DNA from: Ridgeia piscesae
Taxonomy: Eukaryota > Annelida > Polychaeta > Sabellida > Siboglinidae
NCBI GenBank assembly: GCA_025642075.2
Contig: JAODUO010000190.1
Location: forward strand, 453,501 to 517,500
Direction of reading: 5' to 3'
Length of the DNA: 64,000 nt
Part shown: piece after piece, positions 3,641 to 54,213 of the stretch
Position numbering within the stretch: the first letter of the stretch is position 1
Layout: each line of letters begins with the position of its first letter
The notes under the pieces: model-generated
What the model saw: only the letters and a program-made list of their open reading frames with translations
What the model was told of the DNA's origin: nothing
The model's database searches: none
Position numbers and translations under genes: made by a program

Positions 3641-4480
3641 ACATTATTATATATATACGCAAATGTAATGTAAAGCCATGATTATCACACTTTGATCCTA
3701 CTAACTGAATATAAAATAGTTTCCAATACTCTGTCTCTTGATTTTCTCTTGCGCCTATTTTCGCGCGAAGATGCTTGCGCTTGCGCCATCCTTTTTCTAA
3801 AGGCCTTTTTCACATGAAATTAGTGACCTTGACCTTGTAAATTGCGCAAAAATCCCATTAAACCACACAAGCTCGTAAATAGCATATTTTAACATCGAAC
3901 TATTACCCGTATAGCATACATGATTTTGTTATTAAGTTCCATGTTACAACAGTTTATTGTATTCTTAAGTTCAGATTGCTTTGACGGTATAACATTTAGT
4001 GGGCGGGGAATTGTGGGATAATTTCGTGCAGCCATCTTGTCTTGTGTTTGTGCCGTCCTGTGTGTTTGTCGTTGCCCGAAATATAGGTAAATATTGTGCA
4101 TGCCTTCATTACTTCCTTTGTAATATTACACCAGGGAGTAGTAGGATGGTTTATATACATCCTCATCTGTAAAGCCGTGGTATATGCACGGTTAATTGCC
4201 GTGTACATATAAGTATTCATAGACCTCTGGTCGAAATTCCACTGTGTCAGTAACTCGGTATGTGTATTGACAGTCAGAAAGGCTTCCTCACCGTAATTGA
4301 CCGGTCTACCTATCACTATAAAATGCATGTGCACACCACCAAGGCTTATCATAAGTAACTTGGCTCGATCTAGTGTCTTGGCAAAATATCATGAAAGTGG
4401 GAAATTGTGAATGTGCCCTCCCAACTTAATTTGAATAGCAACAGAGCAATGTTAAATGTAAAAAAACGGCCATGTAAAAA
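3641..4480. other. No recognised feature
   Basis: A 118-codon minus-strand frame (3996-4352) has no motif I recognise. GC content is locally higher around 3740-4080. Confidence 0.5.
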
Positions 4481-20639: not shown

Positions 20640-20806
20640 CAATATGAATTCCCCTCAGACAGACCCTGATCCGGACGCGATCAAGATGTTTGTGGGCCAG
20701 GTGCCACGGTCCATGGATGAGGAGGACCTTCGCAAGATGTTTGAGGAGTTTGGGCCCATCTGTCAGCTGAACGTGCTACGAGACAAGGTGACAGGCATGA
20801 GCAAAG
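20640..20806 (+). CDS. CELF: CELF exon 2: internal start and first half of RRM1
   Basis: Acceptor TTACTTGCAG ends at 20639. The internal ATG is at 20644 (A at -3) and the donor is AAAG|GTAAGC at 20807, leaving one base (phase 1). It encodes [14 protein letters not shown] followed by RNP2 MFVGQVP and the first helix and strands of RRM1, up to DKVTGMSK. The vertebrate proteins have the comparable [11 protein letters not shown] start. The frame is also open upstream through the acceptor to an ATG at 20506, so an unspliced upstream start is formally possible. The loop DKVTGMSK lacks the extra residues found in vertebrate CELF1/2. Confidence 0.95.
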
Positions 20807-23800
20807 GTAAGCGACTTCCATTGCCAGTGACTGCAGGTGAACAATGGCAGTGTAATGGTTCTAAAAGATTGCCGTATATGATATGAACGTATAATGAGGC
20901 TGGACTGATTTGGCTTGCAATCCTGTAGACGTAACAGTGGAACTTCACTGGATGGCCACCTTGATAATACAGTCCCCATTATGTAGTCAGGTCATTCAGC
21001 CACTCCAAGGATGACCTTATTAGTGAGGTTCCATGACCTTAACCCTGCGACCGGCCAGTGACAATCCTGTTGCATACTGTTATAATAAAAATCATAACTC
21101 TGGAAATACTTATCATAAAAATATGAATGATGCATCATTTTGCTGCTAAATGAACTCTTTATTATAATATAATTATTACTATCTCTATTATGTCAGATAA
21201 TCATTGTTATATTATTAGCTGAACGTCATCCAAAAAATTACGAAAATGCGCTATCCTGCTCACAAATAATTACTGAACGGACAAATTTCTTACTTCCTGC
21301 GAGACAAATGTAGCCATACATTTTAGCTGCCAAATAAAAAAAAATAATCAAATCCGTTGAATTTTTTTTTTAATCTCGAGGTAGGCTGTTTTAGGCTGGC
21401 CAATCCCTGCTACATTGCCTCTGGCGCAAACCCGCGGCACAGCGGTTAAATGTGGTGCTGACAAATGGTCAATTTTTCAGACCAGAAAGCATCCAAAGCC
21501 GTTCTAACTATTCCAACTACCGGGTAGTATAACAGTCATATTCTTGAATACTATCAGTTTTGTCAAAACATGACGTGGTAACTTTAGATAATCCGAAGTA
21601 AACATTTGAATCTAGAAAGTTCTTCGACACGAATGTCCGCCATCTTGTTGTTTACTTCTGCTCTGGCGGGAAGATGACGCGGTGTTTGAAAGCTTGGTTC
21701 TGATTCGCTGGACCAGCCCCATCCACATGTTTATTTTCCCAGATTGGGCAAGAACATAGTTCTCTATTGGTGCCCCGTATGCGTGGGTCGGGCCTTTATG
21801 AATGGATGCGTAAATTCGTCATGGAAGGCATAGTAAACCACCCAAATTTTGTTTTGTCCGCCTGCGTGTAGCTAGCTGTCATTCCATCTGCTCATGAATA
21901 AATATACATCATTTTGAAAAATATGTCAGCTATCCGATGGTACCAAATGTGCGAGGATCGGTTACAGATTACACAAACTAAAAATGTTTTTATGCAGGAA
22001 GGTGTTTTCTTTCCGATTAATTGGCCATGGCCGGTCGCAGGGTTAACAGGGTCCATATGGGGCCTTAAAATCTTTGAAAATGTTGTGGCAACAAGACATT
22101 TTGGTAACAGGACATTTTGGTAGCAGGACATTTTGGTAAAACCAAAAAACTAACTTTAAAGTTATTCTTCTTTGTGAAAACACTGTGGCTAATAATAATA
22201 ATTGTATGCATATTAATCAGTAAATCCGAAAGAATGTAACTCTGGTTGTATTGTTCTGTAACGATTTATTCCATATTCAAACATGTGTCCTTTATTAATA
22301 CTGCTTCCAATGATGCACATTTGGTACATCGAGTTACAAAATTTCTAGTGGTCAGGAAAGTACTAGTGTTCAGGGCAGAGTCTCTAGTCTCTACAGCTGA
22401 GTCAGATGAACAACAGCTAGTGTTCAGTGCAGAGTCTCTAGTCTCTACAGCTGAGTCAGATGAACAACAGCTAGTGTTCAGTGTAGAGTCTCTAGTCTCT
22501 ACAGCTGAGTCAGATGAACAACAGCTAGTGTTCAGTGCAGAGTCTCTAGTCTCTACAGCTGAGTCAGATGAACAACAGCTAGTGTTCAGTGGAGAGTCTC
22601 TAGTCTCTACAGCTGAGTCAGATGAACAACAGCTAGTGTTCAGTGCAGAGTCTCTAGTCTCTACAAGCTGAGTCAGATGAACAACAGCTAGTGTTCAGTG
22701 CAGAGTCTCTAGTCTCTACAGCTGAGTCAGATGAACAACAGCTAGTGTTCAGTGCAGAGTCTCTAGTCTCTACAGCTGAGTCAGATGAACAACAGCTAGT
22801 GTTCAGTGCAGAGTCTCTAGTCTCTACAGCTGAGTCAGATGAACAACAGCTAGTGTTCAGTGCAGAGTCTCTAGTCTCTACAGCTGAGTCAGATGAACAA
22901 CAGCTAGTGTTCAGTGCAGAGTCTCTAGTCTCTACAGCTGAGTCAGATGAACAACAGCTAGTGTTCAGTGGAGAGTCTCTACAGCTGAGTCAGATGAACA
23001 ACAGCTAGTGTTCAGTGCAGAGTCTCTACAGCTGAGTCAGATGAACAACAGCTAGTGTTCAGTGCAGAGTCTCTAGTCTCTACAGCTGAGTCAGATGAAC
23101 AACAGCTAGTGTTCAGTGCAGAGTCTCTAGTCTCTACAGCTGAGTCAGATGAACAACAGCTAGTGTTCAGTGCAGAGTCTCTAGTCTCTACAGCTGAGTC
23201 AGATGAACAACAGCTAGTGTTCAGTGCAGAGTCTCTAGTCTCTACAGCTGAGTCAGATGAACAACAGCTAGTGTTCAGTGCAGAGTCTCTAGTCTCTACA
23301 GCTGAGTCAGATGAACAACAGCTAGTGTTCAGTGCAGAGTCTCTAGTCTCTACAGCTGAGTCAGATGAACAACAGCTAGTGTTCAGTGCAGAGTCTCTAG
23401 TTTCTACAGCTGAGTCAGATGAACAAAGCTAGTGTTCAGTGCAGAGTCTCTAGTCTCTACAGCTGAGTCAGATGAACAACAGCTAGTGTTCAGTGCAGAG
23501 TCTCTAGTCTCTACAGCTGAGTCAGATGAACAACAGCTAGTGTTCAGTGGAGAGTCTCTAGTCTCTACAGCTGAGTCAGATGAACAACAGCTAGTGTTCA
23601 GTGCAGAGTCTCTAGTCTCTACAGCTGAGTCAGATGAACAACAGCTAGTGTTCAGTGCAGAGTCTCTAGTCTCTACAGCTGAGTCAGATGAACAACAGCT
23701 AGTGTTCAGTGCAGAGTCTCTAGTCTCTACAGCTGAGTCAGATGAACAACAGCTAGTGTTCAGTGGAGAGTCTCTAGTCTCTACAGCTGAGTCAGATGAA

Positions 23801-26800
23801 CAACAGCTAGTGTTCAGTGCAGAGTCTCTAGTCTCTACAGCTGAGTCAGATGAACAACAGCTAGTGTTCAGTGCAGAGTCTCTAGTCTCTACAGCTGAGT
23901 CAGATGAACAACAGCTAGTGTTCAGTGGAGAGTCTCTAGTCTCTACAGCTGAGTCAGATGTACAACAGCTAGTGTTCAGTGGAGAGTCTCTAGTCTCTAC
24001 AGCTGAGTCAGATGAACAACAGCTAGTGTTCAGTGCAGAGTCTCTAGTCTCTACAGCTGAGTCAGATGAACAACAGCTAGTGTTCAGTGCAGAGTCTCTA
24101 GTCTCTACAGCTGAGTCAGATGAACAACAGCTAGTGTTCAGTGGAGAGTCTCTAGTCTCTACAGCTGAGTCAGATGAACAACAGCTAGTGTTCAGTGCAG
24201 AGTCTCTACAGCTGAGTCAGATGAACAACAGCTAGTGTTCAGTGCAGAGTCTCTAGTCTCTACAGCTGAGTCAGATGAACAACAGCTAGTGTTCAGTGTA
24301 GAGTCTAGTCTCTAAAACTGAGTCAGATGAACAACAGCTAGTGTTCAGTGTAGAGTCTAGTCTCTACAACTGAGTCAGATGAACAACAGCTGTGTAAAAT
24401 AGCGGTACTTGGCTACCTGCAATAAATGTAGGAAATAAAATCTCAGGAAAAAATCATGGGGGAAAAAACAGAAAATAGTCGCAAGAAATAAAGTAACAGG
24501 GAGGGAAAATAACACTATTTTAAAGATATACCAACATTGCTAATCAGTGTTCTGTAATATGCATTTGAAACCCACACATTTATGTAATAGCCTGTTAAAC
24601 ATAAATAAAGAAAGTTGCATATTAATGTTCTATAAGTATTTCCTAAAATTCCTGCCTGTGTCTCTTGTTAAAAATATACTCATACTTGTTAGTACTCATC
24701 ATTACATCTTATATTGCGATCTTCAATCCAAAGCTGTCTTGTATTTATGATGTCCTTATTGTACGTGACATCTACATTCAGGGATGGAGTAATAGGTTGT
24801 TGTGGATACTGTTTAATAACTGGTCGAGATCACTTGAATAAGAATGTATGTGAATGACCTACATTGGCACTTGAATGTAAAGTACTTTCAAATCTGCTTC
24901 AAGTGTGTAAAACCAAACCTTGTATTGACTAGATTTAGTTCCTGTGACTTAGTCCTGTGTCTTTATGTCCACCCATCGTTGCAATAATCATGGCAGAGGT
25001 TGATTATTTTCAATAGTTTGACTAATATGACTTGTTACCAAAATGTCCCATTACCAAGACATCTGAATAGTGTAATAGCCTATTAACAATTATTTTGTTG
25101 TCCTGTTGTCAAATATCCTATTACCAAAATGTCTGATGCCGAAATAACCAAAGTCTACTTCACCTAAATGTCATGGATCCTGATTATATAGATGAAGGAG
25201 ATCTGTTATTTGTTAGCATTCCACTGTGTGTTCATCTGTTGTGGACCGTGATCAATGGTCTTGTCACTTATGCTAGTTAAAAAACAATAACCTTAAATAT
25301 TTCCTTTTTCTTTGGGATCTATTATAGCCTTGAAATAGCCTTGAGTTTAGTATCAATCATTGTGTACATGCCCTGTCGTAATAGTAAGGTTCTGTGATCT
25401 TAATAGACATGTTCCACTGTATTTTTATCCAGTTTGGATTACCTTGACAAGTTTATTGAATTGTTCTGTTTTGATTTCATCATAGCCATTCCTCACTGAC
25501 ACTAATAAAACTGTTGAGGGCAAAGTTAAGGGTAAGAAATATGAACACTGTCACATTTAGCAGATTTGAATGTTACATATTTAACAATTGACTGCCACCC
25601 ACAGTGAAGGCAATGATGTGATGTTTTGCAGGGTGTTGTTTTGTGACGTTCTTCACAAGAAAGGCAGCATTAGAAGCACAAAACAAGCTACACAATATAA
25701 AGACAATGACTGGGGTGAGTGAACTGACACTAACAGCTGGTGTGGTTCTTATGTGCTCTTCAACTCAAGTTAGACTTGGGCAGAACAGATGCTGCTCAAG
25801 TGCATTTTATGATGTGTGGCTTCTGGGTTATTTACACACTGATAAAAGGCGTTTTCACGATAAGAGAATGTTTACAGACATGTACATTGTTGGTTATGCC
25901 AGATAAGCCTGCTGTTAGGAAATGCTTACTTAAATACTACATATGCCCACTTGAAAGTTAGGAGATACAAATTTGCTGTTGGTTATTTACAGATTTTTTT
26001 ATATAATAATTTGACTTAAATTAGGTGGTTTTTTTTAGCTGTTATGTAACTGATGCATTTCATAAAGATATGAGATTTGTATGATTCTTGTTTTGATTTA
26101 GACTGTAGATACTGTAATTATAAATGCTGATTGGTACTACTAGTATATTGGTGTAGCCAATTCACAAAATGTTAATTAAAAAAAATTTTTTAATTTACAA
26201 TTTTATACCAAAAAAAAAAAAATTAATTTTAAATAATTTTTTTTAAAGTAATGTTCATCTTGTATAAATGAAAATTGTCTTTGGCAAGTTGTACTTTCAA
26301 GTAACTTATCCAGCAGACCATGAACTACTGCAGTTCAGTTAGACCCACCTTCCTAAGCAGCAGCTGCATGGAATGTTTTTTTAATCTTGGACACAAAACA
26401 TCTGACAGACTAGTCGTTACTGTAATCACCATATGTCACTATATCCTGTTGTATAAACAAATTTCAGATTGGCTGGCTTTAAATAGTTCCATTCTTGGAA
26501 TTCTCATTACAAATGTCATGTCACTTCTGTTTACCAACAAAATTAAACAGCCTCTCGATTACTTTGTGAAGTGGGAATGTGGATTATTTAAAAGGCAGGT
26601 GATTTCATAATTTCGGTGGTTTGCTGATTTCGTTGTTTTTGTTGTTTTATGTTCTGTATACAAAGTGTTAGTTGGACCAGGTGTAACCGGACAGATATAT
26701 TTATATAGTACATTGTGAGACGAAACAATTTTTTAAATATTATCATAATGCACTCAAGCATTAAAATATAGTCACTAATCCTGGAATATTGATGGAATTA

Positions 26801-29800
26801 AATTATATTATTGTCAAGTTCTCCAGATAACAGTTTGATTTCTTTACTTTCCTACAAAGAAAAACATGTATTAATTAGCACAGCATTGACATGAGTTGAC
26901 CTGTTTGTGTTGTAGATGCAGCATCCTATACAGATGAAACCAGCCGACAGTGAAAAAAGAAGTAGTAAGTGTTGTACGCAGGGGCACCTCAAACACGCTG
27001 TAATGTCACTTGTCATATGGACATTTTACCACTTGAATGTACGTAATTATAGAGTAGGCTTCTGCTGTTGATATCTTAGCCACACATGCATGCACACGCA
27101 CGCACGCACGCTCGCATGCACAAACACAAACACACATCCATATATGCACATGCGCACACACATGCATGCAGGCGAGCACATGTACATGGTGGAAAACATG
27201 GACACGGCTTTTAAAATAAAATATGTGTTCATGTAGAATAAATTATAACAATATACAACTTTATTTACGGCTGTCCCGTTCACAGGTGTGTACATACATG
27301 GAATTTGAAATATCTAAATGTTGTGATGGATAGAACATTGTGCCTGATCGTTGACCGCAGTAACAACAAAAACAATGACACTAACACCTTGCGACCTAAC
27401 TTACTTGAAAATTGATACTATTCACATCTTTATGGTTACCATAAAATGGATGGTATAGCAAACTGAATTGAGCCTTGTGGTGGTTTCAGTTGAAGAACGC
27501 AAGCTTTTCCTGGGAATGCTCTCAAGGAAATGTTCTGAGAACGACGTTCGGATGATGTTCTCACCATTTGGTACAATAGAGGAGTGCACAGTTTTGCGGG
27601 AACCAAACGGGCAGAGCAAAGGTAATCCATGCAGAAAATGCAGGTTATTGATTCACGTCAAGGGAAGATAGCTTTAACATGTAGGAGTATTGGTATTTAC
27701 AATATTTATGTAGTAGTATTTTGCAATCCATTGAGTGGGTCTTACCTAATTACATGCATCACATTTCTGGCAGATTGTAATAGCGATGGCGAGTTAACTA
27801 GACTCAACTGCCGTTGTACCTGGATTAGTAGACAGTAATACTGTTTGTGCATGTATATTTGTGCTGTTGTGACACTGCAAGATGATGGTGTGTCGGGTGT
27901 TGTAGGCTGTGCATTTGTGACGTATGCAAGCAAACAGTGTGCCCAGAACGCCATCAGAGGCATGCACCAGTCGCAGACAATGGAGGCAAGTTAACTTTGT
28001 TTATTCTGAGACAGTCGCTTCATTTGTCCCATTTTCATGTCGTCAGTGTTGGTCAAGTATGTGTGTTTGTGTCTGTTGCTCGTTAGTGTCAGTCACGTGA
28101 GTCTGGTAGATGTGTTGGTTGTTAGTGTCAGTCACATGAGTCTGGTAGGTGTGTTGTTTGTTAGTGTCAGTCACGTGAGTCTGGTAGGTGTGTTGGTTGT
28201 TAGTGTCAGTCACATGAGTCTGGTAGGTGTGTTGGTTGTTAGTGTCAGTCACGTGAGTCTGGTAGGTGTGTTGGTTGTTAGTGTCAGTCACGTGAGTCTG
28301 GTAGGTGTGTTGGTTGTTAGTGTCAGTCACATGAGTCTGATAGGTGTGTTGGTTGTTAGTGTCAGTCACGTGAGTCTGGTAGGTGTGTTGGTTGTTAGTG
28401 TCAGTCACATGAGTCTGGTAGGTGTGTTGGTTGTTAGTGTCAGTCACGTGAGTCTGGTAGGTGTGTTGGTTGTTAGTGTCGTCACATGAGTCTGGTAGGT
28501 GTGTTGTTGTTAGTGTCAGTCACATGAGTCTGGTAGGTGTGTTGGTTGTTAGTGTCAGTCACATGAGTCTGGTAGGTGTGTTGTTTGTTAGTGTCAGTCA
28601 TATGAGTCTGGTAGGTGTGTTGTTTGTGTCAGTCACATGAGTGGTAGGTGTGTTGTTTGTTAGTGTCAGTCATATGAGTCTGGTAGGTGTGTTGTTTGTT
28701 AGTGTCAGTCACGTGAGTCTGGTAGGTGTGTTGTTTGTTAGTGTCAGTCATGTGAGTCTGGTAGGTGTGTTGTTTGTTAGTGTCAGTCATGTGAGTCTGG
28801 TAGGTGTGTTGTTTGTTAGTGTCAGTCACGTGAGTCTGGTAGGTGTGTTGGTTGTTAGTGTCGTCACATGAGTCTGGTAGGTGTGTTGCTTGTTAGTGTC
28901 AGTCACATGAGTCTGGTAGGTGTGTTGCTTGTTAGTGTCAGTCGCGTGAGTCTGGTAGGTGTGTTGGTTGTTAGTGTCAGTCACATGAGTCTGATAGGTA
29001 TGTTGCTTGTTAGTGTCGTCACATGAGTCTGATAGGTGTGTTGTTGTTAGTGTCAGTCACATGAGTCTGATAGGTGTGTTGCTTGTTAGTGTCAGTCACA
29101 TGAGTCTGATAGGTATGTTGTTTGTTAGTGTCAGTCACATGAGTCTGATAGGTGTGTTGCTTGTTAGTGTCAGTCACATGAGTCTTATAGGTATGTTGTT
29201 TGTTAGTGTCAGTCACATGAGTCTGATAGGTGTGTTGCTTGTTAGTGTCAGTCACATGAGTCTGATAGGTGTGTTGCTTGTTAGTGTCAGTCACATGAGT
29301 CTGATAGGTGTGTTGCTTGTTAGTGTCAGTCACATGAGTCTGATAGGTATGTTGTTTGTTAGTGTCAGTCACATGAGTCTGATATGTGTGTTGCTTGTTA
29401 GTGTCAGTCACATGAGTCTTATAGGTATGTTGTTTGTTAGTGTCAGTCACATGAGTCTGATAGGTGTGTTGCTTGTTAGTGTCAGTCACATGAGTCTGAT
29501 AGGTGTGTTGCTTGTTAGTGTCAGTCACATGAGTCTGATATGTGTGTTGCTTGTTAGTGTCAGTCACATGAGTCTTATAGGTATGTTGTTTGTTAGTGTC
29601 AGTCACATGAGTCTGATAGGTGTGTTGCTTGTTAGTGTCAGTCACATGAGTCTGATAGGTGTGTTGCTTGTTAGTGTCAGTCACATGAGTCTGGTAGGTG
29701 TGTTGTTGTTAGTGTCAGTCACATGAGTCTGATAGGTGTGTTGCTTGTTAGTGTCAGTCACATGAGTCTGATAGGTGTGTTGCTTGTTAGTGTCAGTCAC

Positions 29801-32800
29801 ATGAGTCTGATAGGTGTGTTGCTTGTTAGTGTCAGTCACATGAGTCTGATAGGTGTGTTGCTTGTTAGTGTCAGTCACATGAGTCTGATAGGTGTGTTGC
29901 TTGTTAGTGTCAGTCACATGAGTCTGATAGGTGTGTTGTTTGTTAGTGTCAGTCACATGAGTCTGATAGGTATGTTGCTTGTTAGTGTCAGTCACATGAG
30001 TCTGATAGGTGTGTTGCTTGTTAGTGTCAGTCACATGAGTCTGATAGGTATGTTGCTTGTTAGTGTCGTCACATGAGTCTGATAGGTGTGTTGGTTGTTA
30101 GTGTCAGTCACATGAGTCTGGTAGGTGTGTTGCTTGTTAGTGTCAGTCACATGAGTCTGATAGGTGTGTTGTTTGTTAGTGTCAGTCACATGAGTCTGAT
30201 AGGTGTGTTGTTTGTTAGTGTCAGTCACATGAGTCTTATAGGTATGTTGCTTGTTAGTGTCAGTGACATGAGTCTGGTAGGTGTGTTGCTTGTTAGTGTC
30301 AGTCACATGAGTCTGATAGGTGTGTTGTTTGTTAGTGTCGTCACATGAGTCTGATAGGTGTGTTGTTTGTTAGTGTCAGTCACATGAGTCTGATAGGTGT
30401 GTTGCTTGTTAGTGTCAGTCACATGAGTCTGATAGGTGTGTTGTTTGTTAGTGTCAGTCACATGAGTCTGATAGGTGTGTTGGTTGTTAGTGTCGTCACA
30501 TGAGTCTGATAGGTGTGTTGTTTGTTAGTGTCAGTCACATGAGTCTGATAGGTATGTTGCTTGTTAGTGTCGTCACATGAGTCTGATAGGTGTGTTGTTT
30601 GTTAGTGTCATTCACATGAGTCTGATAGGTGTGTTGCTTGTTAGTGTCGTCACATAAGTCTGGTAGGTGTGTTGGTTGTTAGTGTCAGTCACATGAGTCT
30701 GGTAGGTGTGTTGCTTGTTAGTGTCAGTCACATGAGTCTGATAGGTGTGTTGCTTATTAGTGTCAGTCACATGAGTCTGATAGGTGTGTTGCTTGTTAGT
30801 GTCAGTCACATGAGTCTGATAGGTGTGTTGCTTGTTAGTGTCAGTCACATGAGTCTGGTAGGTGTGTTGCTTGTTAGTGTCAGTCACATGAGTCTGGTAG
30901 GTGTGTTGGTTGTTGTGGCAATTTACATTTGGACAAATGTGTAATGTAAAATTGATATACAAAAGAAAACAAAACACATATTTCTAACGGAATATCTTCA
31001 TTATTTTACAGTATGTTTATGTTAGAACACCGTCCAAGATTTTGGTAATGCTCACCATACACCATAACATTTATGAACTTGAGAAAATATGATGAGCAGC
31101 AACATGTTTAGTGGGTTATTACCGTTGGGAAAGCAGCATAACATTGATGATGAGTGGATGTTGCTAGCACAAGGCAGAGAAGTCAGCCTCCTAGCATTAT
31201 TATCTAGATCCCTATATGAAGAAACAGCCTTTCAATTGTCGAGTCACCTAGTTCATTCAACTAACAATACTCATGGCCAGCGTGTACGATTTATTCAAGT
31301 GCCAGCTAGGATTCAAGTCTACGCTAATAGCTTTTTTAATAGAACAGTAAAGGAATGGACTAGACAACCCGAAACAGTTATGTATGCAACCACGACTGGG
31401 GGAAGTGATTTTAATTTTCTGATATGCTTTGACACCCCCGATATTTGTGTAACATTTGACCTGATGGTTTTAGCCAATTGTCTTGTAGACATAGACACTT
31501 GAAGTAGGTCTGTCGATGTTGTTAGTCTTCATTTTGGGACCGGATAACAATATCAGATAGTAACATGTCTTGTTGTACTGATGTATAACTTGATACTTGT
31601 TGTAGGGTTGCCGATCGCCTCTGGTTGTGAAGTTTGCTGACACACAGAAAGACAAAGAAATGAAGAAACTACAACAGATGAACACGAATCTACTGGGTAC
31701 ACTGACAGGGGGCGCTCCGGTCAACAACGTCGGTGGTCTCACACCGCAGTACCTTGCTGTAAGTACAGTCTGTCTATTGTACTGGCAACAACGTCGGTGG
31801 TCTCACACCGCAGTACCTTGCTGTAAGTACAGTCTGTCTATTGTATTGGCAACAACGTCGGTGGTCTCACACCGCAGTACCTTGCTGTAAGTACAGTCTG
31901 TCTATTGTACTGGCAACAACGTCGGTGGTCTCACACCACACTACCTTGCTGTAAGTACAGTCTGTCTACTGTACTGGCAACAACGTCGGTGGTCTCGCAC
32001 CGCAGTACCTTGCTGTAAGTACAGTCTGTCTACTGTACTGGCAACAACATCGGTGGTCTCACACCGCAGTACCTTGCTGTAAGTACAGTCTGTCTATTGT
32101 ACTGGCAACAACGTCGGTGGTCTCACACCACAGTACCTTGCTGTAAGTACAGTCTGTCTATTGTACTGGCAACAACGTCAGTGGTCTCACACCACACTAC
32201 CTTGCTGTAAGTACAGTCTGTCTATTGTACTGGCAACAACATCGGTGGTCTCACACCACACTACCTTGCTGTAAGTACAGTCTGTCTATTGTACTGGCAA
32301 CAACATCGGTGGTCTCACACCGCAGTACCTTGCTGTAAGTACAGTCTGTCTATTGTACTGGCAACAACGTCAGTGGTCTCACACCACAGTACCTTGCTGT
32401 AAGTACAGTCTGTCTATTGTACTGGCAACAACGTCAGTGGTCTCACACCACAGTACCTTGCTGTAAGTACAGTCTGTCTATTGTACTGGCAACAACATCG
32501 GTGGTCTCACACCACACTACCTTGCTGTAAGTACAGTCTGTCTATTGTACTGGCAACAACATCGGTGGTCTCACACCGCAGTACCTTGCTGTAAGTACAG
32601 TCTGTCTATTGTACTGGCAACAACATCGGTGGTCTCACACCGCAGTACCTTGCTGTAAGTACAGTCTGTCTATTGTACTGGCAACAACATCGGTGGTCTC
32701 ACACCGCAGTACCTTGCTGTAAGTACAGTCTGTCTATTGTACTGGCAACAACATCGGTGGTCTCACACCGCAGTACCTTGCTGTAAGTACAGTCTGTCTA

Positions 32801-35800
32801 TTGTACTGGCAACAACATCGGTGGTCTCACACCACACTACCTTGCTGTAAGTACAGTCTGTCTATTGTACTGGCAACAACGTCGGTGGTCTCACACCGCA
32901 GTACCTTGCTGTAAGTACAGTCTGTCTATTGTACTGGCAACAACATCGGTGGTCTCACACCGCAGTACCTTGCTGTAAGTACAGTCTGTCTATTGTACTG
33001 GCAACAATATCGGTGGTCTCGCACCGCAGTACCTTGCTGTAAGTACAGTCTGTCTATTGTACTGGCAACAACATCGGTGGTCTCACACCACACTACCTTG
33101 CTGTAAGTACAGTCTGTCTATTGTACTGGCAACAACATCGGTGGTCTCACACCACACTACCTTGCTGTAAGTACAGTCTGTCTATTGTACTGGCAACAAC
33201 ATCGGTGGTCTCACACCGCAGTACCTTGCTGTAAGTACAGTCTGTCTATTGTACTGGCAACAATATCGGTGGTCTCACACCGCAGTACCTTGCTGTAAGT
33301 ACAGTCTGTCTATTGTACTGGCAACAACATCGGTGGTCTCACACCACACTACCTTGCTGTAAGTACAGTCTGTCTATTGTACTGGCAACAACATCGGTGG
33401 TCTCACCCACACTACCTTGCTGTAAGTACAGTCTGTCTATTGTACTGGCAACAACATCGGTGGTCTCACACCGCAGTACCTTGCTGTAAGTACAGTCTGT
33501 CTATTGTACTGGCAACAACATCGGTGGTCTCACACCACACTACCTTGCTGTAAGTACAGTCTGTCTACTGTACTGGCAACAACGTCGGTGGTCTCACACC
33601 GCAGTACCTTGCTGTAAGTACAGTCTGTCTATTGTACTGGCAACAACGTCGGTGGTCTCACACCGCAGTACCTTGCTGTAAGTACAGTCTGTCTATTGTA
33701 CTGGCAACAACGTCGGTGGTCTCACACCGCAGTACCTTGCTGTAAGTACAGTCTGTCTATTGTACTGGCAACAACGTCAGTGGTCTCACACCGCAGTACC
33801 TTGCTGTAAGTACAGTCTGTCTATTGTACTGGCAACAACGTCGGTGGTCTCACACCGCAGTACCTTGCTGTAAGTACAGTCTGTCTATTGTACTGGCAAC
33901 AACGTCGGTGGTCTCACACCGCAGTACCTTGCTGTAAGTACAGTCTGTCTATTGTACTGGCAACAACGTCGGTGGTCTCACACCGCAGTACCTTGCTGTA
34001 AGTACAGTCTGTCTATTGTACTGGCAACAACATCGGTGGTCTCACACCACACTACCTTGCTGTAAGTACAGTCTGTCTATTGTACTGGCAACAACATCGG
34101 TGGTCTCACACCACACTACCTTGCTGTAAGTACAGTCTGTCTATTGTACTGGCAACAACATCGGTGGTCTCACACCGCAGTACCTTGCTGTAAGTACAGT
34201 CTGTCTATTGTACTGGCAACAATATCGGTGGTCTCACACCGCAGTACCTTGCTGTAAGTACAGTCTGTCTATTGTACTGGCAACAACATCGGTGGTCTCG
34301 CACCGCAGTATCTTGCTGTAAGTACAGTCTGTCTATTGTACTGGCAACAACGTCGGTGGTCTCGCACCGCAGTACCTTGCTGTAAGTACAGTCTGTCTAT
34401 TGTACTGGCAACAACGTCGGTGGTCTCACATTGCAATACTGCATAAAATATACCTAAAATACAGTCACTAAAACATGTTTACCTGCCTAGTGTAATGTCT
34501 GTCTAGTTTTACACTATTACCCATAGATAATTACGAACAAAAGTTATTAAAAAAGTACTTTACGTATAGTAACTTGAGCAAGTTGACTAACCTAAAAAGA
34601 AAACTAGTAAAACAAAATCAATTGATAAAAACTTTAAAATGTCCTCATAAGTGAAATAAAAAACACTTAATTAAATAGATGAGTTTTTAGAAGTGTTTAA
34701 CAAACTTGTACTGACGTGGCAGTCCTGAGTGTGGGGGGCAAACTGTTCCATAGAACCCCGACCAGACCGGGAAACAGTGCTCACTGTAGGTGACAGTTAG
34801 TGAGGCCAACACAACAAAACGCGAGGCTGTGAAGCAGATCGTAGACTAGAACTGTTAAAGCGAGCTCATCTCTCCCATTACCGATAATCTGCCTGCAATA
34901 ATCATTATTCTAAGGAAGTCCACTGAATCACTGCTTTGAATGTGTAAACCTTGTATTTGTGCCACCGAATGCCTTGTCATTAATCCACCAGGCCTGTGAT
35001 ATTGCTATTATTGTGTGCCTATAACTTGAATATCTTGTTTACAATTTGAACGTGTCACAGTTGAGAGCAAGTGTGTGTGGTTGTTGTAGTTGCTGCAGCA
35101 GGCGATCACTGCCAACAACCTCGGGGGTCTCGGCAACCTCGGCTCAGGTACGTCTTCCTCTCATGGCACAGCTGTAGTGATATGCTAAATCATGACATGA
35201 CATAGGTCTCAAACGTTTTGTCATACTACAATCTTCAGAGAGATGTAGTTTGGTAAAATGACACTGTCTGTAGAATGCAATGTAATGAGATCATTGCGGT
35301 TAAATCCACCAAATCCTAGACAGTCGAATGCCCCATATGTACCCAACTGAGCTACAAACCCAACACAGCTGTTTTAGAAGGAGGGTGCCACTCCTTTGTC
35401 CAGATTTGGCTGAGCAGTAATTTGTTACAGGTAGTCTGCTGTCTAGAACCTGGGAAAGTTAAACATCAAAGGGTATACTATTGCGATTAAATCGCCTCGG
35501 CATTATTTACCATTTGAACATGTTGCAGGTGGAATCTTTCAAATTACGAATATTGTATCGAGCATAATAAAGTAACTAAACACAAATTGGCAGTCGGTAA
35601 ACATTCAACATACATGATGTTGTCATAAGAATGTAATATTTACAAAAACCTAGGAGCTCGCACCTTTTCTTTTATACATTGTTTCTACTCCGCTAACTTG
35701 TTCTGACCATGTGACAAATATTTGCAATTTACGCCGACAAAGGTAGATTTGATAACGTTTACAAACACATTTCAAACGTTCAAAAATCATAAGCACTCTT

Positions 35801-38800
35801 GAGTCAAAAAACAACTTGCATAAGAAGTTATTTTTTATGAAATGATGTCATAGCTGCCGTGTTTGCATTTACCTGTAGTGTTTGTTTACCTTTACAGGTA
35901 TCAGTGCTTTGCAGGCCCAACAGGTGCTGGCTGCAGCCGCAGCATCAGCGCTTCAGACAAGTCCTGGTAGGTTGTTGTTGTAGCGAATTACTTGTTACGT
36001 TACATCGCGAGAAAGTCATTGAATCCATACATTATTTTCTTCAAATTAACTCAAAGTTTTGACGGTTATTTATAACGATGTCGAATGTTTGCGACAGATT
36101 TCACTGCGTGGAAGGAGCTACAAAAGTTTCCTTTTTTGAGTCAGCAAGTTGTATTTCCAAGCTATTTAATATGTATAGAACATCACTGCTATTGAATAAC
36201 AAATTTCAACATGCATATATCAATAGCAGTGATGTTCTATGAATATTAAATAGCTTGTTTTATACACAATCACCATAACATTTTGTACTTGTAAACATAA
36301 GGTATTATTTACCTAATTGGGACTTTATAATTTAATCATTCTCTGCTGGTCAAACACCATGTGTGGAATCTGTTTTCTGAAACAAAATGGATTTAGCTGT
36401 GATGTGATTGAAGAAATAGTTGTAATTACGTTTTGGGGTGACAACAATTGAAGTGTTGTCATGACTGGGTGTTGTTTTATGTGCTCTCTTGAATGCTGCT
36501 AGATGTTGTGGATTTCTAGTATGACAACTGTAGGCATGTTGTGGTGGCTGATTGGTCTGTTCAGTTTGTGCCTCATGGTTAGTGTTCTTGCACTGTAGCC
36601 TTCACATGAGTTCATCTTGTACATCTCATGACAGGTGAAATGTGAAATCACGTCTCGGCAAATACGGTTCATTACTGAAAATCTCTTATAAGTATTAACT
36701 GAAAAGATAGTGTAATCTGTGCTACTGCTTCATTCATGTAACACAATTTTATACTTCAAAATAGTTGACTTTTAGCAAGACAAAATGGGCAGTTCATTTC
36801 CAAATATTTAATTTTATATAGTATTGCTGTTATGTGTCTAACAGTACTGGTTCTACCCAATAATAAAAATGGTTTCCGATAGTCTCTTAATGATATCGTC
36901 AAGTTTTTGACTTAATACTGTATATTTATTGGTGCAGATAAGTGATATGTCTGTCATTGAAAGTTACTACTGCCGCATTCAAGTGATGCTATTTGCCCTT
37001 GGCAGAGAGAGAGAGAGAGAGTGCTGAGAAAACTTAATTATTTGCCAGTAGGTGTACTCAGGCAGCTAAGGTGATACTTGTGGTGTTGATGTTAGGGTGG
37101 GCCAGTAGGTGTACTCAGGCAGCTAAGGTGATACTAGAGGTGTTGAGGTTAGGGTGGGCCAGTAGGTTACCCAGGCAGCTAAGGTGATACTAGTGGCGTT
37201 GATGTTAGGGTGGGCCAGTAGATGTACCCAGGCAGCTAAGGTGATACTAGTGGCGTTTATATTAGGGTGGGCCAGTAGGTGTACCCAGGCAGCTAAGGTG
37301 ATACTAGTGGCGTTGAGGTTAGGGTGGGCCAATAGGTTACTCAGGCAGCTAAGGTGATACTAGTGGCGTTGAGGTTATGGTGGGCCAATAGGTTACTCAG
37401 GCAGCTAAGGTGATACTAGTGGCGTTGAGGTTAGGGTGGGCCAGTAGGTTACTCAGGCAGCTAAGGTGATACTATGGGCGTTGATGTTAGGGTGGGCCAG
37501 TAGGTGTACTCAGGCAGCTAAGGTGATACTAGTGGCGTTGAGGTTAGGGTGGGCCAGTAGGTGTACTCAGGCAGCTAAGGTGATACTAGAGGTGTTGAGG
37601 TTAGGGTGGGCCAATAGGTTACTCAGGCAGCTAAGGTGATACTAGTGGCGTTGAGGTTAGGGTGGGCCAGTAGGTGTACTCAGGCAGCTAAGGTGATACT
37701 AGTGGCGTTGAGGTTAGGGTGGGCCAATAGGTTACTCAGGCAGCTAAGGTGATACTAGTGGCGTTGAGGTTAGGGTGGGCCAGTAGGTTACTCAGGCAGC
37801 TAAGGTGATACTATGGGCGTTGAGGTTAGGGTGGGCCAGTAGGTTACTCAGGCAGCTAAGGTGATACTAGTGGCGTTGAGGTTAGGGTGGGCCAGTAGGT
37901 GTACTCAGGCAGCTAAGGTGATACTATGGGCGTTGAGGTTATGGTGGGCCAGTAGGTGTACTCAGGCAGCTAAGGTGATACTAGTGGTGTTGAGGTTAGG
38001 GTGGGCCAATAGGTTACTCAGGCAGCTAATGTGATACTAGTGGCGTTGAGGTTATGGTGGGCCAATAGGTTACTCAGGCAGCTAAGGTGATACTAGTGGC
38101 GTTGAGGTTAGGGTGGGCCAATAGGTTACTCAGACAGCTAAGGTGATACTATGGGCGTTGAGGTTAGGGTGGGCCAGTAGGTTACTCAGGCAGCTAAGGT
38201 GATACTAGTGGCGTTGATGTTAGGGTGGGCCAGTAGATGTACCCAGGCAGCTAAGGTGATACTAGTGGCGTTGATGTTAGGGTGGGCCAGTAGATGTACC
38301 CAGGCAGCTAAGGTGATACTATGGGCGTTGAGGTTAGGGTGTGCCAGTAGGTGTACTCAGGCAGCTAAGGTGATACTAGTGGCTTGAGGTTAGGGTGTGC
38401 CAGTAGGTGTACTCAGGCAGCTAAGGTGATACTAGTGGCGTTGAGGTTAGGGTGTGCCAGTAGGTGTACTCAGGCAGCTAAGGTGATACTAGTGGCGTTG
38501 AGGTTAGGGTGTGCCAGTAGGTGTACTCAGGCAGCTAAGGTGATACTAGTGGCGTTGAGGTTAGGGTGTGCCAGTAGGTGTACTCAGGCAGCTAAGGTGA
38601 TACTAGTGGCGTTGAGGTTAGGGTGTGCCAGTAGGTGTACTCAGGCAGCTAAGGTGATACTAGTGGTGTTGATGTTAGGGTGGGCCAGTAGGTTACTCAG
38701 GCAGCTAAGGTGATACTAGTGGCATTGATGTTAGGGTGGGCCAGTAGGTTACTCAGGCAGCTAAGGTGATACTAGTGGCGTTGATGTTAGGGTGGGCCAG

Positions 38801-41800
38801 TAGGTGTACTCAGGCAGCTAAGGTGATACTAGTGGTGTTGATGTTAGGGTGGGCCAGTAGGTGTACTCAGGCAGCTAAGGTGATACTAGTTGTCTTGATG
38901 TTAGGGTGGGTCAGTAGGTGTACTCAGGCAGCTAAGGTGATACTAGTGGCGTTGAGGTTAGGGTGGGCCAGTAGGTGTACTCAGGCAGCTAAGGTGATAC
39001 TAGTGGTGTTGATGTTAGGGTGGGCCAGTAGGTTACTCAGGCAGCTAAGGTGATACTAGTGGCGTTGATGTTAGGGTGGGCCAATAGGTTACTCAGGCAG
39101 CTAAGGTGATACTAGTGGCATTGATGTTAGGGTGGGCCAGTAGGTTACTCAGGCAGCTAAGGTGATACTAGTGGCGTTGATGTTAGGGTGGGCCAGTAGG
39201 TGTACTCAGGCAGCTAAGGTGATACTAGTGGCGTTGAGGTTAGGGTGGGCCAGTAGGTGTACTCAGGCAGCTAAGGTGATACTAGTGGTGTTGATGTTAG
39301 GGTGGGCCAGTAGGTTACTCAGGCAGCTAAGGTGATACTAGTTGTCTTGATGTTAGGGTGGGCCAGTAGGTGTACTCAGGCAGCTAAGGTGATACTAGTT
39401 GTCTTGATGTTAGGGTGGGTCAGTAGGTGTACTCTGGCAGCTAAGGTGATACTAGTTGTCTTGATGTTAGGGTGGGCCAGTAGGTGTACTCAGGCAGCTA
39501 AGGTGATACTAGTGGCGTTGATGTTAGGGTGGGCCAGTAGATGTACCCAGGCAGCTAAGGTGATACTAGTGGTGTTGATGTTAGGGTGGGCCAGTAGGTG
39601 TACTCAGGCAGCTAAGGTGATACTAGTGGCGTTGATGTTAGGGTGGGCCAGTAGATGTACCCAGGCAGCTAAGGTGATACTAGTGGTGTTGATGTTAGGG
39701 TGGGCCAGTAGGTGTACTCAGGCAGCAAGGTGATACTAGTGGTGTTGACGTTAGGGTGGGTCAGTAGGTGTACTTAGGCAGCTAAGGTGATACTAATTGT
39801 CTTGATATTAGGGTGGGCCAGTAGGTGTACTCAGGCAGCTAAGGTGATACTAGAGGTGTTGATGTTAGGGTGGGTCAGTAGGTGTACTTAGGAAGCTAAG
39901 GTGATACTAGAGGTGTTGATGTTAGGGCGGGTCAGTTGTAGAGGCAGGGAGGGAGGGAGGGAGCATGAAGGAGAGAGGGAGAACAGAATGCAGACGGAGC
40001 GAGAATGGGTGCAGAACGAGAGACATGTGAGAGTGAGACAGAAGGGCATAGAGAGGTAGAGAGTGCAAGGAAGAGCCAGGGTGAGAGAGAGAGAGGTACG
40101 GATAGACAGAGAGAGGGAGAGAGTGCAAGGAAGAGCCAGGGTGAGAGAGAGAGAGGGAGAGAGACAGAGAGAGGGAGAGAGTGTATGAGTGACCGTTGTC
40201 AGTAACCACGGTGTGGTCAGTGCTAGTCATGTATCTGTCTACATTGTGTAGCCCTGGCCGCTGCGGTCGCTGGCCTCGCTAACTCCGCCCCCGCCAACTC
40301 GTCAACGGCCACAGGTACATGTTTCTTAATGACCTTCGCACTACAATAGTAACTACCTGTCCAGCTGTAGCATCTTGCTCTCAGATCCTCTTCTCTCGTC
40401 GCTAGATACTTGCATTTCTCATCTGCCTTGTGCTTTCCGAGAGGCGGCTGATTTCAAAATAACCTGGATCGATTTATTGGCAACATTCACCTTGCTTCTC
40501 TGGCCTGTTGGCGTGCGGTCTCAGTAACCTGACGTGGCCTCACTTCCGTCTCTAGACTTTGTTATTCTCCACAACAGTTCCATTGTGGTGATGCGGCTTG
40601 TAACAGCATGTTTCTTAGGCGGTTTGGTTTGTGTATTTTGCTGTAGGAAGAGCTTGATGAAGATTGTTACCACTAGTAGCGGCAGCCAGCAGTGCTATTG
40701 TAGTGTTATGCTATGCTTCATGTCTCCAGTAGGAAATCGGTTCCAGTCACCAGCTAGCGTGTTGCTTATTTCACTAATTCATTTTCTGATATAAATATTT
40801 CAGCTAGCCGTAATTAAATGTTTTAGTTACCTATAATTTTGGTGATGTTTTGGGTTATTCTTTACTAAACTCGTGGCTTGGCTAAATCGTAATTCGGTTA
40901 ATTGTAGGAATACACCAGTGTCAATGGGAAGTAAATGTCTGAATTCCACCAGTGTGTTACCCTTGAGTAGAGTTGATGACAGCGGCAGTAGCCTACACAA
41001 CATGATGCCATGAAGGATGCCATGAATTTATTCCTTACTTAAACTGATTATTTTCATTCCTGCTGTTACATATTGAATCATCACTGTAAAATTATTTATT
41101 ATGTTGCACTGGTTAATCCTTTTACAGTTTGTTGACATCCTGTTGACCTACTTCAGCGATGGCTGACATTGCTCATTGACTCGATTTGTTAGGTTAAAGG
41201 GTAACAAAAGGAAACTTGTTAATGTTACAAATCTACAGGGTTGTTCAGTAACCTACTAGCTTGATATTCTTAAGTGTAGTACAAATGTATATTTTGTTAA
41301 TACTTCTGAATATAACTTGAACCATTGCCTTTTCGTTCCCTTAAAGGACTGAATGTTACAGTGACTTGGTGTGCTTGCTGTTTGTGCATGTTTCTAGCTA
41401 TTGCTGTGTGAGTGCTGCTTTAATAGCTGCTTTGAAGTGTTAATATGATATACATCTTAGAATGGCTTACACAGGCTGGCATTATTTCAACTTGTGCAAC
41501 CCTACCGTAGGAATTAGTTTGACCTGTGACACCTTACCCTAAGCATCATTTCAACCTGTGACACCCTACCCTAGGTATAATTTCAACTTATGACACCTTA
41601 CCTGGGCAGTATTTTGAACTGGGACACCCTGCCCTAGGCACTATTGTATGTTGTTACAATTTACCAAAGGCATTATTTCTGCCAATGACAATGTATGCAA
41701 GACATTACTTTATTCTGCGTTAACTTGTCCAAGGTTTTGTTTTGCTCTGTGAATGTGACAATTTAACTTACTAGTAGGCATTTAATTTTCACCCTGCGAC

Positions 41801-43294
41801 TGCATAACATGGGTGTTAGTTCGTCACGTGACAGTGTAGTGTAGGCAGTTTTCGTCACCATGGTGACAGGTTTGATACCATCACACCATGAACTCTGAAT
41901 ACATACCAAACTCCATACACAGCTTTGTTTAATTATTATATAATGGACATTCTTCAAATCAGAACAAATGTGGCAGTTAGTTTAACAGTGTTAAAATGAT
42001 ATCGTGCCTTGGCTCAGATTCAGTTTGTGTGTGAAGCTTTTCCATGTTGCTAGTTGGTGGTAGTGGCGTGATTAGATCGCATCTAGACCTAGTGCATGAT
42101 GGTAGTGTAGCTCTACAGTTGTCACTGAACAAACACACACTGATGTGACAGGTTGCAGTCTCTGTCAACTTTGCCATGGTTGTGGTAGTGTTTGTGTAGT
42201 TTCAGAGGCTTGTCATTACTGGAAGCACTACAAAAGTGCTCACCAGTCAGCCCCCCTCGTGCAGATGGTGGTAGGCGGTGTCAAGTTACCAATCAATTAA
42301 TTAGACAATTTATTATTGGTCAGCTGACCTGATGTTAGATGGAAATGCATTCAAAATTTGGTTGCGTAAGAGACATATTTAAAATTATACTACATATGTA
42401 CTTGTAATGCGATAAGTGCTTTAATGGGATGACACGATTTGGACAATATCTGTGAAAATTACAAGAATTTGTGTAATACTGATAAGTGATGCCATTGGAT
42501 ATAGAGGAATAATAATAATAATAAAAACATTAGAAAACAAAGTATTTCTACAGTTTTCTCTCTAGACAATACTTTTACAAAGATTTGTTTATGACTAATG
42601 TGAACTTTGAACTCGGACAACTTGGGAGCACAGCCGATTGCACACGTTCTAGCTGAAATTGTTCTATTACATGCTTTATTTTATTAAAATATGTATGAAC
42701 TGATTGTTATGTCCACATCATGGTTTGTTCATCATGCAAATAGCTGCAACCTGCATTACTGAGTTAGTTGACAAATTAAATTGACCATTTGTCATCTCAT
42801 GCATGATAGGCTGACCACTGAAACAAACTGACAGTTGGTGGGAATCGTGATGGTTTCATGTGAAGTCGTGGTGGAAACTACAGTAGTCAGTGCCACTGTG
42901 TGCTTGTTGATGGAACATCCGATGGAGACGGACTGAGCAACTTATTTTGCATGAGAGACCACAACAATGATCAATATTGCTTTTGTGCATATTTGTTAAA
43001 AAATCGTTTTGCCATTTGAAAGGTATATGTTTTCTGCCAGTGTAATTGTGTCACAACTTGTGTACATTTCTGTTTGTTTCAAATTAAAGATTAAATGCAT
43101 GTAGATATCTTGGTAGTGTAGTCACTGTAGTGCTAGGATGAGTCGCATCAGGGGTAACTGTAGCTCTGTTGTTACAATGTAACAAACACTACATACACAC
43201 ATGTGTGTATATATATTTAATATATACATATACACACATGTGTGTATATAATATATATGTATATATATACACATATATATACATATATATATAC

Positions 43295-43349
<55 letters not shown>

Positions 43350-46300
43350 CATTTAAGACTCGTATGTGGAGTGTTTGACACTGTCAGCTTCAAGTCTATC
43401 CAATGTTTTTTTAACCAGGGAAGGTCCTCGGGTAATTTGTCAGTTGTTTTATGCCTTTCTGGCATGATAAGACTGGCAAAGCAGTCACATATGTAATGGG
43501 ATGTTAAACCGAGATGAGTGATATGATCTTCCAGCAATCTGCATGGAACTGTTGTACTCCAAAATGTTCATGTGCCGTTCATGATGACGTGTGTCATTTA
43601 ACTTGGTATTGTTGCGAGTCATACTGCTCCAGACGTCAGATTAAGTGGCACTTTTCTTGAGTGACAGCAGCAGGTGTCATGCAGACTGTGACTTGACTCT
43701 AGTCATGCGAGAGATGCCTATGAAGTTGACATACATGTTAATGTGTCTCTATGTCTGTGCCAGGTGACGTTGGCAACATGTCAAACCTACAGAACCTCCA
43801 GGGCCTTGCCACCTTGGCAGCCATGGCCAACAACCCAGGTGAGTGGGGAGCCACAAAACAAAAGACTGACCACTGGTCACTGGTCAGAGGCAGATAAACC
43901 TCCTAACCAAATCAACACGAATGCCCATGACTATATCACAATTTCCCCAACTTACATTACGTTTATTTCTTCTAAAACATTTGTGAAACAACTACAAGAG
44001 TCAAATCTGTTTTACATTTTTTTACAATAGGTGACTAATTTTCCCTATTACAATTAAATCTTCTGAAACGTAAAACATATTTGTTTGTAATTGCTTTTCT
44101 ACCATATACTTTCAGCACTTCTATGCTCCAATGACAACTTTTGCCTATCTGTGTTTATGATTATGCCAAATGATTGTGTTTGTTGCTCCTCTGAGGCTTG
44201 AGCCTTCAAGGACACAAGTGCTACAGGAGTGTTACAATTATTATTAATATTTTATTTACAAACCATATAATTATAAAATTACATTCAGTAAAACAGGTTG
44301 ATGTACTCTTGTATATAGGTTATTTTATGAAACTGTGGTGGTTTTGTTACTGTACAGCCAGACTGTGAGACCCTGTGTTATGTGTACTCACCGTGACTGT
44401 AGTGGTCTGGTGTGATGTGACGTTTGTGTTGTCCTACAGGAATGAACACACCAAACCTGGCCGCGTTGCAGCAGTTTGCATCAGCAACATCGCAGTCAGG
44501 CAACCTGGGTCTGTCCGGCATGAACAACTCTGGTATGTCTATACACCACCAGGTGCCACTCTTGCCTTGTCATGGCCTGTTTCGTGACTTCACCTATTGA
44601 AGTGTTTGTTGATTTAAAATGAAACGCTCTATGAGCGTTGCACAAGAGCCTAGCGTTTCTTTGAATGTTATGACACCCCTTGAAATAACTAACTGTTCCA
44701 TGCAATTATAGTGTCGGGAAAAACAGATTTTATCTATATAGCCCTCTAATGTGTTCAATTTTATAAACTGGGTGCATCTGTCTGTCTGTATGTATAAAAC
44801 TGTTTCTGGATAGGACAGTAATTCGATTGTGGATGAGTTTGAACTTAGTAATGTAAGGGGTTCTTCCTCCTCACCTTAAGATTCACCAACCGAAATCTTT
44901 AATCATCTGTTACACTGCTATTGTAATTGTGGTCGCCTTTTACAAAGCGGGCTCTCATTTGTATTTTCTCGAATGTGTTTATATCTTTTTGGATCCCCGT
45001 ATTCTACAATGGGGCATATAAGGGTGATATAAGGCCTTTCTTTTAGAACCTTCATTTGTTCGGATGATGTGGTTTATCTTGACCCTGAATGCTCTAATGC
45101 CTCCATGCCCTAATGCCTGTCTGTCTGTCTGTCCACAGCATCCGTGACCTCCACCAACACAACCAACGCAACGAACGTTGGTGGCCTGTCCACGATGCAG
45201 AGCAACATGCCGAACATTGCCAGCCTTGTGGCGCCACCTGTCGGTGGCAGCCTCAATGGCCTCGGTGGCACGAGCCAGTCGGGCATGGACGCCCTGAGTC
45301 AGGCGTACAGCGGCATACAGCAATACGCAGGTTTGTCCGGTTTACTGAGTCAAGGTAAAGGCCAATTTTACGATGTCTTTTTCAGTGTTCCGGACGTGGT
45401 GTGCTGTGTTGCCTGCCTCCCTGCCCCCCTACTCGCTGTCTTGTCTCGGCACCACGGCACGAAATAACCCACTCAGTCACCACGGCTTGCGTCTCTCTTC
45501 TTCCCTTGCAGGTCGCGACCGTCACTGACGCTCTAGGGCAGTGGTCGCGAGACGGACGCCGCAAACGTTCGCAAAGTTGTGCTGTCGCTTTTTTCTTTTG
45601 CAAACTTTGGTGGTTCTGTCGATCGCAGAAAGGGAATCTGTTACTTCAGCAGATGGGTGGAATTGAAGTGAAAATTGGTGAGTGGAAGAACGTGACTGGC
45701 TTCAGCCAGATGGTGCAAGTGTGTGAGTTTATTTCTTGCCATGAGAGACAGTGTGAATACGTGCGTGTTTCCTGTGCACGTCCCCACGCAGGTGACGGGG
45801 GAAGGTTAGATGACAGACACAGCATTAGACTAGGGAGACTTGGTGGGTATCTCAGGGCTGTCATGTATCTTATTTCAAATAGCTGTTAGATATCTTCACA
45901 TACAGAGCTGGCTTGGGTGTAAGATATATTGTTACACACAGCTCCTCTGTCAGATATCTTGACTCAGCTGTCAGATATCTTGATTCTGCTGTTAAATATA
46001 TTGTCACACTGAGCTGTCACACGTAGTGTCCAATAGCTGGAAGTGAAGAGAGTGTTGTGACAGGACATTTGGAGAGGGATAGAGGGGTTTTGGTAAGGGT
46101 GGTTGGAATGGGCATATAGGATTTGTGAGAAGGGGAGTTGGAATAGGTGTAGAGGGTTTGTGGGAAGGGGTTGTATTAGGGTATTTGGGAGAGGTGTAGA
46201 AGGGTTGTGAGAAAGGCAGTTGGGATAAATATAGATGGGTTGTGGGAAGAGGTATTGGGGTACTTGGGATTGTGAGGGAAGTGGGGAGAAGTGGAAGTGG

Positions 46301-52067: not shown

Positions 52068-52158
52068 GCATCTGTCCTGTGTAAGTAGTGCATCTGTCCT
52101 GTGTAAGTAGTGCATCTGTCCTGTGTAAGTAGTGCATCTGTCCTGTGTAAGTAGTGTG
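52068..52158 (+). repeat. Small tandem repeat, 22-bp unit, four copies
   Basis: GCATCTGTCCTGTGTAAGTA plus GT, repeated four times with little change. Each contains GTAAGT. Confidence 0.95.
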
Positions 52159-53776: not shown

Positions 53777-54213
53777 TAGAACTATTCAGCTTTCGTAGCT
53801 GATCTCAGTTTGTGCATGAGATAAGTTTTTTATGTTCCATCTGCTGGGTTTTTAGCTGCATCCAATAAATCTCTGTTGTCTTTCCCTCTACCTTCCCAGT
53901 TCATGTCTCCCCTGTAGTCGCACACTGGAAGTCTTAGTTAGTGTGTCAACAGCAAGACGCTGGTATACAACAGACTTTAATGTTTACATCACTTCAGCAA
54001 TGCCACGTTAATGTAAACATGTTGGTGTTAGCAAATGCACCTTTCAGTTACAGTACAATGTTGACAGCTGTATCAGAACAGACAAACAAACAAACATTAG
54101 ATCATTCTTGTCGGCATAAGAATAAATTTAAGACGCTAGGAGGTGTGTGGTGAGCACCTGTCAAAACATGCTCCATTCATTTCAATTCTGTCTGCTTATC
54201 TTTTTTCTCGTAG

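Follow-up and report, generated by a model that had tools for sequence, protein, structure and literature searches.

In human CBS, a variable number tandem repeat (VNTR) of 31 bp is known, c.1444_1467+7(16_21), with 24 coding and 7 intronic bases per unit and 16-21 copies, and a further CBS variant, 844ins68, is a 68-bp duplication at the junction of intron 7 and exon 8 (excerpted text of PMC2630376). Polyubiquitin UBC presents a tandem array of dual-specific AGGT sites, used as 5' or as 3' splice sites and spaced in frame by 228 nt within coding sequence (excerpted text of PMC10809524). Here we describe a window of 64,000 nucleotides from the annelid Ridgeia piscesae (contig JAODUO010000190.1), in which a coding exon of a CELF-type gene runs into a minisatellite built from its own end, so that the 5' splice site (donor) is present in 42 copies. 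With good confidence, this array is seen as a lineage-specific minisatellite in which the first donor would be used, while the later copies would be silent, tolerated and kept by exchange or slippage.

The host gene looks like a gene for a CELF-type RNA-binding splicing regulator. Thirteen coding exons on the forward strand were joined to a CELF/Bruno-like coding span from ATG to TAG (20644..51865), encoding 472 aa with three RRMs. The frame is open to the TAG at 51863-51865, and the introns are GT-AG apart from the one following exon five, which has a GC donor. This donor, GAG|GCAAGT, closes the exon before the sixth (27906-27990) and was placed by the reading frame. RRM_1 was identified in three stretches of the protein, two N-terminal and one C-terminal as in CELF/Bruno-like proteins, and the RRMs matched the solved CELF1/CELF2 structures 4lmz, 3nmr and 2my7. 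The closest protein among the matches listed (best 120 of 7986) was CELF2 of Lamellibrachia satsuma (P0001; 86 % identity over 94 %), a tubeworm of the family Siboglinidae; further annelid and mollusc CELF proteins ranked next. Two more exons of the Lamellibrachia protein were located by string match at ~40251 and 44439 and were left out of the joined model. The sixth coding exon (31606..31758, +; 153 nt, phase 0 to 0), delimited by frame, splice signals and relatives, ends with ...TPQYLA. It is followed by the first donor GTAAGT (31759..31764, +), presumably the authentic 5' splice site, which gives the full 472-aa protein. The next coding exon (35090..35147, +) starts in phase 0 according to the frame and to the junction in the P0001 protein, TPQYLA-LLQQ being common to P0001 and the model. 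For comparison, 41 relatives were collected, 40 by searching protein sequences with the exon translated onward across two units and P0161 from a search with P0134. Of their 41 short open reading frames (ORFs) at the sixth exon, 38 read beyond its end, and all 38 go on with V. Therefore, a GT is present at the equivalent point, and donor 1 occupies a conserved position.

The tandem repeat was reported by Tandem Repeats Finder (TRF) at 31722-34430 with a period of 64, 42.3 copies and 97 % matches. The anchor GTAAGTACAGTCTGTCTA occurs exactly 42 times from 31759 to 34382, with a spacing of 64 in 40 of 41 intervals and of 63 in one, the latter caused by a 1-nt deletion in unit 27. Anchors and TRF together define a tandem array of 42 units, 41 of 64 bp and one of 63 bp (31722..34408, +), followed by a partial and diverged unit 43 without donor (34409..34439, +), the first 22 bases of which equal unit 1. 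Each unit is composed of 37 exon-derived coding bases, GTAAGT and 21 further intronic bases, thus 27 intronic bases in total. GCTGTAAGTACAG is present in 42/42 units, and every GTAAGT is intact. In the rest of the 64-kb window this hexamer was counted 13 times on the forward and 11 times on the reverse strand; the 42 occurrences in the array versus 13 elsewhere on the forward strand exclude a chance origin. The array takes up 2672 bp (80 %) of the 3331-bp intron that separates the sixth coding exon from the next.

The unit length of 64 (1 mod 3) does not keep the reading frame. Donors 1-8 were translated, and donors past 8 were judged from a stop at 31888. Among donors 1-8, the full length of 472 aa was obtained from donor 1 alone. 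Splicing from donors 2 and 3 shifts the frame, and the proteins end in downstream exons at 284 and 332 aa. Extension to donor 4 or later meets an in-frame TAA (31888..31890, +), which lies inside the third GTAAGT: the proteins of donors 4-8 end at 263 aa, and the later donors likewise include this stop. For donors 4 and 7 the added length is divisible by 3, and it is the stop, not the frame, that truncates the product. Skipping of the sixth exon would keep the frame owing to its 153 nt, at the loss of 51 residues reaching into RRM2. Most of these features had been recognized in a sequence-only reading of the locus: a donor-spanning minisatellite of about 42 copies, a unit of 37 coding bases, GTAAGT and about 21 intronic bases, a stop near 31888, and donor 1 as the true exon end all recur here, the last one backed by the P0001 junction and the GT in the fragment ORFs. 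The exon holding the array start was rightly assigned to CELF, only its number has to be changed from exon 7 to the sixth coding exon of the 13-exon model. The claim that frame preservation is unique to the first donor applies to the full-length product; as to the frame itself, it is contradicted by donors 4 and 7.

The tails past the donor, available for the 38 relatives, comprise at least 10 residues in 31 and at least 25 residues in 16 of them. The array translation, compared to the 31 tails of at least 10 residues, yielded no match better than E 0.21. A second unit would start 9 residues past the donor, hence short tails such as that of P0121 (12 residues) are weak evidence. Likewise, counting a second exon-end motif in the ORFs of relatives is a weak test, as the 64-bp period shifts the frame of the second copy. 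One close relative is P0134 (61 aa, encoded on a 171-kb contig): after the exon end it reads VSTV, as GTAAGTACAGTN would give, and continues with a tail that matches 34538-34612 of the window (36.2 bits, E 1.5e-7). This match is clear, as 50 shuffles of the tail reached 23.1 bits at most. A second match of this tail in another frame, 34594-34629 (23.9 bits, E 0.004), is just above the shuffles and counts only because it is collinear with the first. The intron to the right of the array (34538..34629, +) thus has its counterpart directly after a single donor in P0134, where the distance from donor to matching sequence is ~15 nt, compared to 2779 bp from donor 1 in R. piscesae. A remnant of a unit or partial unit, which a collapsed assembly of an array would be expected to leave, was not seen at the P0134 join. 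P0121 and P0161 (12 and 50 residues past the donor), the two further hits of the search with P0134, also present a single donor followed by sequence without array match. In the simplest reading, the array was gained in the R. piscesae lineage and is probably young. A 24-base piece of the unit was absent from prokaryote and virus contig collections, which says little.

The array probably arose when a segment spanning the 3' boundary of the CELF coding exon was duplicated in tandem, and expanded into a minisatellite of now 42 copies. In exon definition across the 153-nt exon, the spliceosome would pair the 3' splice site with the donor closest to it, and copies 2-42 would stay within the intron without effect. 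Rare use of a later copy would result in frameshifted or stop-containing mRNA and in nonsense-mediated decay (NMD). Unequal exchange or slippage, and not selection on the donors, would keep and homogenise the array. Its location needs no special cause, since a random placement of five array seeds gave a probability of ~0.10 for at least one spanning a donor (14 donors assumed); the tolerance has to be seen as the notable part. For the CELF gene, the array is most likely neutral or mildly costly.

Several points weigh against this interpretation. The predicted U1 pairing of the donor, -6.8 kcal/mol, is middling among the twelve model donors including this one (-5.8 to -13.3), and the predicted accessibility of donor 1, 0.28-0.32 for four flank sizes, is hardly distinct from the means of the other units (0.27-0.30). 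In the classic experiments with two competing 5' splice sites, the intron-proximal one is reportedly preferred, which would predict the use of late donors here. As to the origin, the array-free state of P0134 is seen as a translated ORF, and a loss by deletion in that lineage is possible because the 107 bp adjoining the array (34431-34537) are also without counterpart there. According to the excerpted text of PMC5389562, the choice among alternative 5' splice sites is influenced when several of them are occupied by U1. Structural shielding of the later donors was rejected, the accessibility of unit 1 being equal to that of other units. Over a stretch of 146 nt, the fold of the repeat RNA is somewhat superior to those of its shuffles (z -2.1; 4/200 as good), without singling out donor 1. 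Neither strength nor simple structure marks donor 1, therefore position is the remaining explanation; exon definition should favour the donor nearest to the 3' splice site of the exon. Other types of splice sites were considered as well. A recursive-splicing site consists of juxtaposed AG|GT, and an array of recursive-splicing or dual-specific sites was rejected on a count of 0 AGGT in the array. The three AGs of one unit have pyrimidine fractions of 0.53-0.65, inside the range of the twelve model acceptors (0.47-0.82), and cryptic micro-exons from array AGs are possible by this measure.

The variation among the units bears on the alternatives to a tolerated minisatellite. It was scored by sites on 41 full-length units, unit 27 being left out for its deletion. 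Nine of 64 sites vary, 7/37 in the exon half and 2/27 in the intron half (Fisher p = 0.28), and 55 of the 59 minor-allele cells are located in the exon half. Hence the concentration of variation in the exon half claimed by the sequence-only reading is true for cells, but not significant for sites. All six CpG positions belong to the exon half, none to the intron half, and CpG sites are more variable than the others (4/6 vs 5/58, p = 0.003). The idea that CpG decay accounts for all of the variation was kept in part only, as sites 7 and 8 argue otherwise: a T at unit position 7 occurs in three units, always together with A at position 8, and thus need not be CpG decay. At position 8, four close relatives (P0001, P0121, P0134, P0161) have M (ATG), and A may be the older state. 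The corresponding codon of unit 1 (31729-31731) is V (GTC) in the coding copy versus M in these four relatives, the array units having GTC or ATC; this V-for-M replacement may point to an exchange between coding copy and array. The alternatives already present among the units are V/I, G/S, T/A and Q/H. Sixteen unit types, the deleted unit being a type of its own, alternate in irregular order. Identical neighbours were observed 10 times, compared to 5.3 times on average after shuffling (p = 0.02), and the longest repeated block, four units (22-25 and 37-40), was matched in 286/2000 shuffles. Local duplication within the array receives weak support, and the recent homogenisation suggested earlier keeps the excess of identical neighbours in its favour, but not the repeated block. 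The other cause suggested at that time, selection on the donors, received no support from the analysis. A selection that keeps the donors intact, e.g., as a U1 array guarding the transcript from premature polyadenylation, would agree with the 42/42 intact GTAAGT. However, the intron half is without CpG, the two halves are equally variable outside CpG (exon half 3/31, intron half 2/27, p = 1.0), and, given 5 variable positions out of 58 at non-CpG sites, the probability that GTAAGT is invariant amounts to 0.57. Selection on the array donors is therefore not supported, though also not disproved, and we consider this explanation hardly credible. The array is known from one assembly and the copy number may be inexact, but an assembler that inflated or invented it would scarcely have produced 16 irregularly ordered unit types, just one deletion of 1 nt, a last unit that has diverged, and flanks of unique sequence; an artefact is thus very improbable.

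A regulatory function would be another explanation for the maintenance of the array. A steady share of transcripts from later donors would be directed to NMD, the repeat number would set the level of CELF protein, and a GU-rich array in the preceding intron could let CELF regulate this exon of its own gene. CELF proteins bind UGU-rich RNA. In accordance with such a rheostat, the translated products of donors 2-8 are all truncated, and splicing from any later donor retains the stop at 31888. The intron before the sixth exon contains a GU-rich array of 73 copies of a 39-bp unit (28074..30914, +; tandem repeat listing) with 63 TGTGTTG in 2.8 kb versus 14 in the other 61 kb. It begins 88 bp past the GC donor, contains 11 GTGAGT and 28 GTAGGT, and is a possible CELF-binding platform. 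However, any GU-containing repeat gives a GU enrichment trivially, the donors give no indication of being under selection, and the donor array seems to be missing in P0134, so the regulation would be young. The rheostat is an unlikely explanation. Similarly doubtful is a role as fast-mutating array, in which the repeat number would set the decayed share of the transcripts and an exchange with the 41 non-coding copies would rewrite the 12 residues at the exon end.

The CELF gene is a minisatellite-rich setting, as four other arrays larger than 1 kb are present and the five arrays, including the donor array, cover 38 % of the gene length. Besides the 39-bp array, these are located in other CELF introns at 22363-24395, 37044-39936 and 46819-48070, with units of 54, 57 and 13 bp, respectively. 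A tiny donor-like array was observed ~200 bp past the CELF stop, where four perfect 22-bp repeats, each with a GTAAGT, occupy 52068-52156. The end of P0001, CELF2 of Lamellibrachia satsuma, matches an ORF at 54132-54359 (CRDVC.PCLRGVLAFVVFFPAYTLHVVSRAVVPVETHKQ), downstream of the CELF stop in R. piscesae. Given this position beyond the stop, the P0001 gene model may be wrong at its 3' end or contain an alternative last exon. Reverse-transcriptase domains (Pfam RVT_1) at 61956-62435 and 3121-3681 (-) probably belong to elements similar to long interspersed nuclear elements (LINEs).

The preferred interpretation, a tolerated minisatellite with use of the first donor, would make this locus a natural experiment on a duplicated 5' splice site: 42 copies have the same donor sequence and a similar predicted accessibility, and the full-length protein results from the first only. 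The donor use per copy would gauge the preference of exon definition for the first site versus the occupancy of downstream sites by U1. Within the literature collection and the terms searched, no further donor-spanning array was named. UBC shares with R. piscesae the tandem repeat with a splice site in every unit; in the excerpt its sites are AGGT and the frame is kept inside coding sequence, whereas the R. piscesae array has 0 AGGT and a frame-shifting unit of 64 bp. CBS 844ins68, as far as excerpted, resembles the array in the tolerance of a splice-junction duplication via a strong preference for one copy, but is a single duplication compared to an array of 42 units. The closest likeness is to the CBS VNTR, for which alternative donors are reportedly used in transcripts. 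In both cases the unit consists of a coding-exon end plus donor, for CBS according to its notation, its length is not a multiple of 3, and the head-to-tail copies, on the CBS side as given in the excerpt, differ by substitutions, which are few in R. piscesae (97 % matches). The R. piscesae array differs in its 37 + 27 nt, its 42 copies and its location in an annelid CELF gene, and is known here from the sequence of one assembly. Judged by the composition of its unit, it is a large example of the exon-intron-boundary VNTR type of the CBS 31-bp repeat, which suggests that the boundary of a coding exon can seed a minisatellite with the gene frame unbroken, as in human CBS.

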